Shown here piece by piece: positions 1 through 3,252 of a stretch of 26,840 bases of DNA; position 1 is the first letter of the stretch, and the number at the start of each line of letters is the position of its first letter. The notes under the pieces were generated by a model, which was not told the origin of the DNA, ran no database searches, and saw nothing but the letters and a program-made list of their open reading frames with translations. Source of the DNA: a virus; IMG/VR virus record IMGVR_UViG_3300027608_000130, positions 1 through 26,840 of that record, one strand, 5' to 3'. The position numbers and the translations under genes were made by a program.

Positions 1-640
1 TTAATTTAGACGGTGGAGTAGTTACTGCAGTTTGTAAATTACCGCCAGTCTTAGCATTATAAGCATCAACACCTTTTTGCGTTAGACCACCAGTAGAACT
101 CTTGTGTCCTTTAGCGTCAATAGCATATTCTAATAACTCTTCATCAGTAATAGCTTCTAATTTTTCCCATATAGAATCAGCGTGAATATCATGCTCTAAT
201 GAAAGATCTTCAACATATTCTTCAATTAGATCAAACTGTTCTTCCAGTTCATCTCTGGATTGCATATAATCTCTAACAGAACTTATATAGTCTTGGGCCA
301 AAGTAATCTTAGACTGAACCCATTCAGGCATATTGTCGTCATCACTAAGCATGTCAATCAGATCTTTAGAGTTACGCAAAACAGTTTGTAATTGAGTGCG
401 AGCCATCTGACCTTCATAGTCATACTCTCCTTTATCAATTGCCTTTGCGGCTTCTTCTAACACATTGAAGACTTCTTCAATTTCTTCGTTTGCTGATTTA
501 AAATCAGCGTCAGTTGGAGCACCTTCACTTCCAGGTTTACGCATACGCTCACCTGAACCATTTTTAATTCGTTTTCTTTTAGCGTGAATGTTATCCCACA
601 GTCCACGCTTTTCTTCTAACCATTCTTTGAAATTAATCAT
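1..640 (-). CDS. Partial CTS-bearing protein with basic KRKR motif; C-terminus off the window
   Basis: The ATG at 640 overlaps the upstream stop as ATGA, and the frame stays open to position 1, so about 213 residues are visible and the end is missing. Residues 1-10 (MINFKEWLEE) match the T4 capsid-targeting pattern. Residues 14-43 carry a basic stretch (WDNIHAKRKRIK followed by GSGERMRKPGS and GAPT) that is common in small proteins of marine T4-like phages, which I recall under DUF5872. A long acidic helical middle follows. The last visible part (GLTQKGVDAYN, then NLQTAVTTPPSKL) resembles the start of a basic Cys-containing domain that I recall as DUF6321. The DUF numbers are from memory. A packaged, DNA-associated protein is an inference. 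Function is unknown. Confidence 0.75.
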   Translation of the reverse strand, partial: MINFKEWLEEKRGLWDNIHAKRKRIKNGSGERMRKPGSEGAPTDADFKSANEEIEEVFNVLEEAAKAIDKGEYDYEGQMARTQLQTVLRNSKDLIDMLSDDDNMPEWVQSKITLAQDYISSVRDYMQSRDELEEQFDLIEEYVEDLSLEHDIHADSIWEKLEAITDEELLEYAIDAKGHKSSTGGLTQKGVDAYNAKTGGNLQTAVTTPPSKL

Positions 641-1866
641 CTTTGCCACCCTTTAATTATGTCAGCAGAGAAATTAGCCTTGCTGAATTCCATACGATCT
701 ACAATCTTTACAGCACCACCAGTAAGGTGATCAATAGCAACGAAACCTTCTACACCTGTTGCTTTAAAGCCATTAGATGTTTTAAGGAATGTGCTAACAT
801 GACCAGCTGAATTCATTTTGTTTATAATCATTGCTTTTGCTTCAACCAATAGGTTTACTAGATCAAAGATTGCTACAATTTGATTTTGGTCATGATGAGC
901 GAAGAAGCTTAGAATCTTCTTACGCATATCTTCCTGCGTTTTCTTTCCAGCAGAAGTCTTTTTCTTTTCTATTTCTTTTTCGTATCTATCATGAATCCAG
1001 TGATAGAGCTCTTGAACGTGAGCTTTAGTGTTGGTGATTAGTTCACCTTTACGAATCTTTGAATTGCCGAATGTTTTTACAACCATCAATAGGTCTTCAT
1101 CAGCGCTAATAGCGTTTAGTGTTGGTGCACTGATGGAATTAAATAAAGTACCTGCACGAGAAAGAATCTTTGTAACTTCGGCAGTTTCAGATGCAGTGAA
1201 TGTTGCAGTTCCAGAATAGTCTTTATAGTTTGCGTCATCCATCCAAATACTTGACACATCGTTGAACTTATCAACGATAGTCTTACCGAAGGAAGCAGAC
1301 ATAGATTCAAATGAATCACCGGTATAAGTAGTATGCCAAACTATACCAATCTTTGAAGATCTAATCTTTTTACCAAGAGTAGAATCATATGGTACTGCAT
1401 ACATAATTGTGTTTGGATGGAAGGTGATGTATTTCTCACCATCAATAGTCTCGGTCTTCTTATCATCGGTAAACATTAAGTCACCCTGATATACACCGGA
1501 TTTAATACCAAGCTTTGAGAATTCTTTAAGAGCTATCTTTAGTTTTATAGCCAGATCACCGGATGTATCTGCTTCTACTTCAGCGGCAGTTTTATAAACT
1601 TTAGGATTTTTATTAAAAACCCCTTTTTTAGCTACGAAGAATTTTCCATCGGTTGGATCAATACCAGCAAAAACTGCAGGGGCACCATCCCATTTCACCG
1701 TTGCAGTGATTTTATTTTTGCTATGACCAGCAAGCATGTCGCGTAGGTCTTGTAGAAAATTGATAGCTTTACGTGTGCCAGTAACACCTTCATTGAAGAT
1801 TAGATCCTCAATGTGTTCCATGTGCGTATTTTTTTCTTCTTTTAAATATGTTTTAAAATTTAACAC
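637..1866 (-). CDS. Ligase-like covalent nucleotidyltransferase candidate with capsid-targeting N-terminus
   Basis: 409 aa, starting at a GTG that directly follows the upstream stop, with an AAGGTG ribosome site seven bases before it. Residues 1-10 (MLNFKTYLKE) resemble the T4 capsid-targeting sequence. Residues 58-61 are KWDG, fitting motif I (KxDG) of the ligase/capping nucleotidyltransferase superfamily. FVAKKGVFN at 77-85 sits where ligases have SRxG or SKGS. GVYQGDLMF (124-132) and TIMYAVP (153-159) fit motifs III and IIIa. EGFVAID (373-379) fits motif IV and VKIVD with K387 fits motif V. The motif order is correct and ends at the C-terminus, as in RNA ligases. I recall homologues in marine T4-like phages only as hypothetical proteins (DUF6267, from memory). 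The enzymatic role is an inference; the substrate is unknown. Confidence 0.8.
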   Translation of the reverse strand: MLNFKTYLKEEKNTHMEHIEDLIFNEGVTGTRKAINFLQDLRDMLAGHSKNKITATVKWDGAPAVFAGIDPTDGKFFVAKKGVFNKNPKVYKTAAEVEADTSGDLAIKLKIALKEFSKLGIKSGVYQGDLMFTDDKKTETIDGEKYITFHPNTIMYAVPYDSTLGKKIRSSKIGIVWHTTYTGDSFESMSASFGKTIVDKFNDVSSIWMDDANYKDYSGTATFTASETAEVTKILSRAGTLFNSISAPTLNAISADEDLLMVVKTFGNSKIRKGELITNTKAHVQELYHWIHDRYEKEIEKKKTSAGKKTQEDMRKKILSFFAHHDQNQIVAIFDLVNLLVEAKAMIINKMNSAGHVSTFLKTSNGFKATGVEGFVAIDHLTGGAVKIVDRMEFSKANFSADIIKGWQR

Positions 1867-3252
1867 TTAATACACCTTATAGTGAATTGATGAAAAGTCA
1901 TTTAATTTTTTAGCAGACATATACATTTTTTTAAACAATACTTTTTTATTTGATTCTGATTCAAAACTCCAGATATAATATAACAATACTGCAGCTCTTC
2001 GTATCTTATATTCATCTGGTTGCTTTTCATTTATCCCGTTGACATTAACTAAATCAAATTTATTAGCTTTAATAAATTTAGCGAATTGTATATCTTCCTT
2101 TTGAGTAATTAGTGTATCATATACACTATTTACTGTAGGCAATACTGTAGAAGCATATGTCACCCAATTCTTAATATTTGGAAACAATGTATTAATTACA
2201 TCGGATGATATAGCACCATCAAATGTTTTAGCATCTTGAGTTTGACCTTCGCCATATGTTTTTAATTGGCCAGATGCTGCTTTTGGTCGAAATCTAAATC
2301 TATAATTAATAGTATTATCATACGATTTAAATATTGGTAGAATATCAAAATAAGAATTTTCTACATTATATTCGAATTTATTTGATATTTTAGTATACTG
2401 TATATTATCTACTAGATCTGCATCTACTTTAACTTTAATAATATTAGCTTTAGGATTAGATACTTTCTTCAATGATATACCATAAAGATCTTTAGAATTA
2501 AAAGCCTTTTCTAAAAATAAATTTAAGTTTTCGATTCCTACTTTTTTAGTTTTTAATTCATTATACAATATATTTATATTCGACTGTAAAATATTCTCAC
2601 TGGATTTTTTTACAGCCCAAATATCTGCAGGATTCCAATTATCTTTACTATCTGGCAAAATCTTTTCATCGGTAATTTTATTTAGAAAATCTATTTTTCG
2701 TTTGTCACTGTCTCTGTAAAAGTTATATTGATTAAGATTTGGTATTACGGTATTAATAGCATTAAATGTTTTAACAAATGAATCATGCCATGATTTATCA
2801 AATTCAAATTTAATGGTTTTGTTTATAGTTTCTTTAGATGGTATTGACCCATATTCTAACATAAATCGAATAGCATCTTCTTGCTGAGCAGTTGAAGGAG
2901 TTTTATTAGTATTAGAATTTCCATCATTATCTATGACGTTAGTTAAACGGCCGCCAGATTTATATAATCTAAATTTAAATGAATCTATTGTAAACAATCC
3001 TTGATTATTCGGTTTTTCTAAAACAGCTTTTACATTTTTATCTGCTGAAATTGCATTATATATTTGGTTAAAGGTGTTAATGTCATTTGATACTAATTTT
3101 AAGCGAACTATTCCACTTATTACGCCGTCTTCAGTTTCTACAAAAAGAGATAATTTATATGGCAATAATTTTTTCATGACTGGTTTTAACTTAAGGCTCT
3201 TGCCTATAAGTATAGCAAACCCACTTTCTCCCTGAAAATATTTTTTTGACAT
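1867..3252 (-). CDS. Phage protein of unknown function with PD-(D/E)XK-like motifs
   Basis: 461 aa, very A+T-rich codons, first gene after the 3295-3310 terminator and directly abutting the next gene. I recognise no named family. A glutamate-containing helix (QEDAIRFMLEYG, 124-135), then WNPADIW (206-212) and GISLKK (258-263) fit the order of a PD-(D/E)XK nuclease core: helix Glu, Asp210, and a hydrophobic-x-Lys in which Ser replaces the usual Glu. A basic strand YRFRFRPKA lies at 317-325 and is followed by a Gly/Gln-rich loop. There is no signal peptide or membrane segment. The start ATG at 3252 is preceded by a weak GAG site and, farther up, by a late-promoter-like AATAAATA. The nuclease call is a weak inference; a structural or DNA-binding role is equally possible. 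Confidence 0.75.
   Translation of the reverse strand: MSKKYFQGESGFAILIGKSLKLKPVMKKLLPYKLSLFVETEDGVISGIVRLKLVSNDINTFNQIYNAISADKNVKAVLEKPNNQGLFTIDSFKFRLYKSGGRLTNVIDNDGNSNTNKTPSTAQQEDAIRFMLEYGSIPSKETINKTIKFEFDKSWHDSFVKTFNAINTVIPNLNQYNFYRDSDKRKIDFLNKITDEKILPDSKDNWNPADIWAVKKSSENILQSNINILYNELKTKKVGIENLNLFLEKAFNSKDLYGISLKKVSNPKANIIKVKVDADLVDNIQYTKISNKFEYNVENSYFDILPIFKSYDNTINYRFRFRPKAASGQLKTYGEGQTQDAKTFDGAISSDVINTLFPNIKNWVTYASTVLPTVNSVYDTLITQKEDIQFAKFIKANKFDLVNVNGINEKQPDEYKIRRAAVLLYYIWSFESESNKKVLFKKMYMSAKKLNDFSSIHYKVY

Follow-up and report, generated by a model that had tools for sequence, protein, structure and literature searches.

The stretch of DNA analysed here (hereafter the window) comprises the 26,840 nucleotides of the IMG/VR virus record IMGVR_UViG_3300027608_000130, and this 26.8-kb record is probably a fragment. 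It contains a T4-like replication region with genes for DNA polymerase, UvsX, a DnaB-like helicase, clamp, clamp loader and gp46/47-like SbcCD proteins, together with those for a late sigma factor, RegA, thymidylate synthase, dCMP deaminase and a glucosyltransferase. The gene considered in this work encodes a protein of the Pfam family DUF6267 (Table 1). Its open reading frame (ORF) starts with the GTG at 1866-1864 and ends with the stop codon at 639-637, and this GTG lies directly against the stop codon that ends the upstream gene. The protein matches DUF6267 (PF19782) with an E-value of 8e-110 and 368 bits (curated cut-off 27), and PHROG 455, annotated 'unknown function', with an E-value of 1.2e-96; NCBIfam gave no match. 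A PADLOC match to Cas13a (E=0.004) is at chance level and was set aside. A first reading of the window, made from the letters alone (the sequence-only reading), had described the family as known only as hypothetical, which agrees with these two entries without function.

Using tblastn, DUF6267 was found in 468 phage records, the majority from phages of Synechococcus and Prochlorococcus; other carriers are the Pelagibacter phage HTVC008M, the Methylophilales phage Melnitz and the Stenotrophomonas phage DLP6. The cyanophage proteins are annotated as 'T4-LIKE GC: 71'. A search for cellular homologues recovered 34 loci, nearly all from metagenome bins, and these look like phage contigs. In the record of S-PM2 (AJ630128, L084:5992-7771) the gene is divided between p138 and p139, the latter annotated as cytitidyltransferase, and BFVD contains a single protein of 591 residues (A0A0M6VVW4) in place of this pair; the division may reflect either a frame error in sequencing or a true difference. 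No paper in the literature searched names DUF6267, a mention in the main survey of RNA repair (Nucleic Acids Res. 2016) being still possible.

Table 1. Features of the DUF6267 locus (window coordinates; residue numbers of the window protein in brackets).
Feature	Coordinates	Strand	Basis
DUF6267 coding sequence, very likely a ligase-like covalent nucleotidyltransferase, 409 residues, GTG start	637..1866	minus	Pfam, PHROG, motifs, model
Leader V-L-N-F-K-T-Y-L-K-E (1-10) resembling a capsid-targeting sequence, with the (I/L)-x-E motif for processing at residues 8-10	1837..1866	minus	relatives and T4 rule
Invariant N-terminal block N13-x-H15-x-x-H18-x-E20-D21	1804..1830	minus	alignment
Motif I KWDG (58-61), Lys58 predicted to be nucleotidylated	1684..1695	minus	alignment and model
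Motif Ia-like VAKKG (78-82), K81 invariant	1621..1635	minus	alignment
Motif III-like QGDL (127-130), Q127 and D129 invariant	1477..1488	minus	alignment
Probable motif IIIa strand IGIVWHTTYT (173-182)	1321..1350	minus	alignment and model
Predicted helical domain (225-352) between motifs IIIa and IV, with invariant N268 and K344	811..1194	minus	alignment and model
Motif IV EGFV (373-376)	739..750	minus	alignment
Motif V VKIVDR (386-391), K387 and R391 invariant	694..711	minus	alignment
Gene downstream, truncated at the end of the window; begins with the leader MINFKEWLEE, followed by GLWDNIHAKRKRI	2..640	minus	matrix score
Neighbour on the upstream side (phrog_1462, function unknown), leaderless, with a D-x-W...SLKK pattern	1867..3252	minus	PHROG; pattern by eye

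Motifs and predicted fold of the DUF6267 protein

The 406 proteins obtained from five scans and the named phage members were reduced to 58 representatives sharing less than 80% identity. The multi-alignment reveals that K58, D60, G61, K81, Q127, D129, E373, G374 and K387 are conserved in 58/58 sequences, as are H178, T179, Y181, R391, F394, S395, N398 and F399. The N-x-H-x-x-H-x-E-D block near the N-terminus displays the same conservation at each position except N13 (57/58). K58, D60 and G61 are also invariant in a second alignment of the family (A1). The sequence-only reading had assigned KWDG, VAKKG, QGDL, EGFV and VKIV (386-389) to motifs I, Ia, III, IV and V of the ligase and capping enzyme superfamily; these positions are exact, and the nine motif residues listed first above are invariant in all 58 representatives. 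It had omitted the likely motif IIIa strand and the N-terminal block.

A regular expression containing the motifs in order recovered 325 of 411 homologues, 4 of 20,000 shuffled versions of the window protein and none of 1,027 other ORFs. A looser expression with three motifs recovered 408/411, 34/20,000 and 15/1,027, respectively. Since shuffled sequences and other ORFs rarely match, the ordered pattern is not due to chance.

Two members of the family were modelled with AlphaFold2. Model 1, the window protein predicted with 94 family members, has a pLDDT (predicted local distance difference test) of 86.7 and a pTM (predicted template modelling score) of 0.82; model 2, a short cyanophage member of 309 residues with 30% identity to the window protein, has values of 90.2 and 0.84. 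Foldseek ranked ligases at the top of the PDB matches for both models, and its PDB candidates were submitted to VIA-align. With model 1 the best alignment is to the Naegleria gruberi RNA ligase 6vt1 (Z 8.4, 184 residues, 3.7 A), followed by TbREL1 (Z 8.2) and T4 Rnl2 (Z 7.6), with fungal Trl1 and DNA ligases also present, and most of the best matches are ligases. With model 2 the best matches are nucleic-acid ligases in 50 cases out of 50, with RNA ligases leading and fungal Trl1 and T4 Rnl1 among them; the N. gruberi enzyme gives Z 8.2 over 177 residues at 4.0 A. Z-scores near 8 are modest, but a chance resemblance of folds would not be expected to give so pure a list of ligases. The alignments to ligase structures cover the full range of the motifs, and every motif is placed on a strand, or at the end of a strand, of the kind expected. 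Beyond motif V the chain of model 1 forms one short helix and then ends, so that DUF6267 contains no C-terminal OB domain with motif VI.

From the invariant motifs and the two models, we consider that DUF6267 is very likely a covalent nucleotidyltransferase of the DNA/RNA ligase and capping enzyme superfamily, with a predicted fold closest to that of the RNA ligases; nucleotidylation of its lysine is highly probable. The superfamily assignment of the sequence-only reading is thus borne out, and the fold comparison that it had proposed matched RNA ligases (including T4 Rnl2) as well as DNA ligases. The same superfamily includes the capping enzymes, and the helical insert could bind a target other than nucleic acid, so that DUF6267, instead of sealing strands, might nucleotidylate a protein, some small molecule or, in a cap-like manner, the 5' end of an RNA. 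The best fold matches are ligases and not guanylyltransferases, and the OB domain of capping enzymes is absent from DUF6267; we regard this alternative as quite unlikely.

Several results speak against the assignment to ligases. The best E-values of Foldseek are weak (0.006-0.03). The acidic residue of motif III is D in DUF6267, most ligases having E. In hmmscan searches of the window protein up to E=1, only DUF6267 and two unrelated weak matches appeared, with no ligase family; a profile of 94 members, searched against the PDB, detected nothing ligase-like; and hhalign comparison of two alignments with the relatives of T4 Rnl2 gave no match (probability 0.2%). Because sequence profiles join it to no known ligase family, DUF6267 would represent a new branch of the superfamily, belonging to no named family.

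The leader and the virion

In T4, the first ten residues of IPIII are enough for targeting to the head, positions 4 and 7 being involved in targeting and positions 8 and 10 in processing (PMC9026906). The window protein begins with such a stretch of about ten residues, with hydrophobic or aromatic residues at 4 and 7, I/L at 8 and E at 10. All 78 of its 78 close relatives display nine residues and a Glu, followed by an E/D/Q-K-N-x-H-M-x-H block (e.g. MKTLKSFIAE and MLNLKDYLKE). In the HTVC008M clade the leader is shorter and (I/L)xE is kept in 79/79 loci.

A matrix of positions 2-10 was trained solely on DUF6267 leaders. Applied to 150 kb of T4, with 1,185 ORF starts, it placed IpIII, IpII and IpI at ranks 1 to 3. 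The only high-scoring starts in the window are those of DUF6267 and of the adjoining downstream gene. Within 6 kb of DUF6267, 114 other ORFs score at least 7; they are distributed over 64 of the 78 loci and all lie on the coding strand, compared with 0/593 ORFs on the opposite strand. The same score is reached by 2/282 ORFs of T4 and 3/326 of Melnitz, and for 20 matrices with permuted columns the median was 1 to 2 matches (one outlier, 37). The carriers of the leader near DUF6267 include an NMNAT-like gene, a HAD phosphatase, a GLWDNIHAKRKR protein and a 'SDDKGKLHELL' protein.

Three side observations concern these sequences. A GLWDNIHAKRKRI protein with the leader (L022:7224-8015) has DUF6321 at its end. 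A GLYANIHAKRKR segment, similar to GLWDNIHAKRKRI, is found within another cyanophage protein, P-HM2 gp164. The top capsid-targeting score of Melnitz (17.9) belongs to a hypothetical ORF of 131 residues (Melnitz-3, L419:21306-21701), a candidate injected protein.

From this leader we infer that DUF6267 is likely to be packaged and injected in the clade of the window phage. A leader common to DUF6267 and several putatively head-targeted products could also belong to a head core or scaffold protein that has lost its enzyme activity; the alignments show every catalytic residue to be invariant, even in the leaderless cyanophage copies, which makes this possibility very improbable.

The literature searched contains no virion proteomics of a leader-bearing member of DUF6267. 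For the neighbouring genes, the NMNAT-like T4-GC190 belongs to the virion proteins of S-SM1 (PMC3037559), and NMNAT-like proteins were found in the virions of S-SZBM1, S-SCSM1 and S-CREM2 (PMC9146016, PMC9602691, PMC10665884); the authors of the cyanophage virion papers noted that such virion proteins could be contaminants. The starts of S-SZBM1_140 (MRFRQFIIEA) and of S-SM1 GC190 (MKKFSAFLNEA) both contain (I/L)xE, and the DUF6267 copies of these two phages start without this leader. In this pair of genes the presence of the leader tracks presence in the virion, a small but consistent result. The leader is not the sole route into the virion because SSZBM1_139 is present there without it.

Two results weigh on the other side. 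The leader was found in 0 of 238 loci of three cyanophage clades, and cyanophages are the majority of the sequenced members. The virion table of S-SZBM1 lists the products of both downstream genes (_140 and _139) and not that of the DUF6267 gene (_141), this non-detection being weak evidence. The cyanophage loci led us to reject injection as a trait common to the family. The sequence-only reading had suggested an action at the start of infection 'if also injected'; this condition is supported for the window clade, with its T4-type leader in 78/78 relatives, and is not supported for the family at large. Since the cyanophage copies are leaderless and that of S-SZBM1 was undetected in the virion, the function of DUF6267 does not depend on injection in all phages.

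Neighbouring genes and proposed function

The commonest partner of DUF6267 is the NMNAT-like gene, located nearby in 60/78, 67/90, 78/80 and 73/79 loci of four clades. Natural fusions of the two domains occur in the S-PM2 protein A0A0M6VVW4 and in two distant contigs (L453/L454, about 920 residues), and the profile of PHROG 455 covers both. These associations favour a role in NAD+ chemistry, in which DUF6267 would be an NAD+-dependent nucleotidyltransferase whose NMN is recycled by its partner, or both would counter NAD+-depleting defences. We find this role unlikely: the NMNAT-like gene is present in 0/79 loci of the fifth clade (within short flanks of 2.5 kb), no part of DUF6267 was recognised as resembling domain Ia of LigA, which binds NMN, and both proposed activities are predicted ones.

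A HAD phosphatase is encoded upstream of DUF6267 in 23 of 78 loci of the window clade, nearly always abutting or overlapping it. Downstream, a P-loop kinase is present in 53 of 90 loci of the HTVC clade (e.g. L082:9730-10389), often starting with F(I/L)(I/L)KE. The PHROG matches of these proteins to polynucleotide kinase are weak (E 1e-4 for the HAD protein and 8.5e-8 for the P-loop kinase). In Pfam and NCBIfam the kinase matches the zeta toxin (Zeta_toxin), AAA_33 and seryl-tRNA(Sec) kinase. Its profile against the PDB gave seryl-tRNA(Sec) kinase, zeta toxin and 4gp7, all with weak E-values; we take the 4gp7 chain to be a clostridial Pnkp kinase. The profile of the HAD phosphatase gave no match in the PDB. 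On these similarities, healing of RNA ends by the neighbouring HAD protein or kinase is possible.

Other observations concern the same neighbourhoods. HAD phosphatases (FDIDDTLFHT) that have no Pfam match and start with a capsid-targeting-like leader are encoded at L030:5378-5992, L070:5384-6001 and L039:5387-5998. The genes upstream of DUF6267 vary by clade, and several contain a D-hydrophobic ... hydrophobic-SLK pattern (e.g. WNPADIWAVK...GISLKK), as in the upstream gene of the window and at L070:4096-5310, L085:4923-6008, L082:6935-7993 and L086:4791-5927. This pattern looks like the core of a PD-(D/E)XK nuclease; Pfam and NCBIfam gave no match for these genes. In most window-clade loci inspected, the next gene after the NMNAT-like one is ferritin/Dps-like (e.g. 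L022:9783-10220).

In the mechanism that we propose, Lys58 would accept AMP from ATP, NAD+ being a possible alternative donor, and transfer it to a 5'-phosphate end, after which the strand would be sealed, RNA being a likelier substrate than DNA. In the window clade, DUF6267 would be made with its ten-residue leader, enter the prohead core and be trimmed after Glu10 by a gp21-type protease. The trimmed protein would be injected with the genome and the other leader-bearing products of the operon (the NMNAT-like enzyme and, in about a third of the loci, the HAD phosphatase) and would be active from the first minute, the mending of cut RNA being its most plausible task. Sealing of nucleic-acid ends has, in our judgement, slightly better than even odds, and RNA repair against a host defence is a tentative proposal. 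Covalent nucleotidyl transfer, packaging and nucleic-acid sealing taken jointly have a probability of about 0.4. Concerning the substrate, sealing of RNA at the start of infection is the leading reading, with NAD+-linked chemistry and the sealing of DNA nicks as serious rivals.

The gene neighbourhood also yields points that count against RNA sealing. The HAD phosphatase and the P-loop kinase belong to different clades and neither can be assigned to RNA end healing, and the NMNAT-like partner fits NAD+ chemistry and RNA repair equally. The bearing of the phosphatase, kinase and NMNAT-like neighbours on a sealing or anti-defence role is only suggestive.

DUF6267 could instead be the replicative DNA ligase that cyanomyoviruses and their relatives seem to lack, a nick sealer replacing T4 gp30. 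Its gene adjoins gp43/uvsX/gp41 in most genomes. Control searches found the ligases of T4 itself with PF01068 and PF09414 (PF09511 was run with the T4 control); no PF01068 ligase was detected in HTVC008M, Melnitz or seven cyanophages, and no PF01653, PF09414 or PF09511 ligase in any DUF6267 phage searched. Cyanomyoviruses are described as having no g30 homologue, with a distant one possibly unrecognised; the same review judged a true absence likelier, the host ligase being able to substitute (PMC2984593). Against this explanation, a PF01068 ligase accompanies DUF6267 in 3/3 large genomes of the window clade and in DLP6, DUF6267 contains no OB or DNA-clamping domain and its fold ranks nearest to RNA ligases, and a head-targeting leader makes little sense on a replisome enzyme. 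We hold this explanation to be rather unlikely. As a universal replacement of gp30 DUF6267 is ruled out by the phages that have both, and therefore replacing a ligase is not its only role. In the cyanomyoviruses themselves it is a candidate for an unrecognised ligase.

In summary, DUF6267 is an unstudied and abundant protein of T4-like phages, and probably a head-packaged ligase-like enzyme in the window clade. A wider scheme, which we consider doubtful, is that a shared leader brings into the head a mending set (an RNA ligase of a new family, a phosphatase or kinase and an NAD+-making enzyme), answering defences that cut tRNA or other nucleic acids or deplete NAD+ before phage genes are expressed; in the leaderless cyanophages, which would have lost the leader or never had it, the same enzyme would be an unrecognised phage ligase. 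A family present in most cyanomyoviruses thus gains a testable enzyme class, which bears on their published ligase gap (PMC2984593). The leader provides a simple rule, applicable to sequence, by which injected proteins of non-enteric T4-like phages could be predicted; it also points to an operon of them. If an injected ligase proves true, phage RNA repair would extend from a response after infection to one borne by the particle.

Comparison with known systems

The N. gruberi RNA ligase (Rnl5-type; 5cot, 6vt1), the top match among solved structures for both models, belongs to the superfamily with the Lys-AMP core. It differs from DUF6267 by an identity of only 11-13%, by the helical insert that DUF6267 has between motifs IIIa and IV, and by its OB domain, which is located at the N-terminus and has no counterpart in DUF6267. 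With T4 RNA ligase 2 (RnlB; PF09414) and T4 RNA ligase 1 (RnlA; PF09511), DUF6267 shares the predicted core fold, the order of motifs I, Ia, III, IIIa, IV and V, the absence of an OB domain and motif VI, and an origin in T4-like phages. Unlike Rnl2, it has K-x-D-G in place of K-x-H-G and D as the acidic residue of motif III, and it has neither the type of C-terminal domain of the two T4 enzymes nor a hidden Markov model or profile-profile match to them. PF01068 DNA ligases and mRNA capping enzymes are distinguished by their C-terminal OB domain and motif VI.

As to packaging, T4 IpI, IpII and IpIII have a comparable N-terminal leader of ten residues, with an aromatic residue at 7, I/L at 8 and E at 10. 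These are small proteins without enzyme motifs, whereas the cargo here is a 45-kDa enzyme-like protein with an operon of such cargo. T4 packs its ADP-ribosyltransferase Alt into the head and injects it (PMC9026906); Alt is a precedent for an injected enzyme, with unrelated chemistry and a different propeptide. Phage RNA-repair sets include the tRNA repair by T4 PseT (Pnkp) and Rnl1 (reviewed in PMC7824862). DUF6267 resembles this pair in being a ligase-like protein encoded beside a HAD phosphatase or a P-loop kinase; it differs in that the T4 set is not packaged and in that the RNA activity of its own neighbouring kinase or phosphatase is putative.
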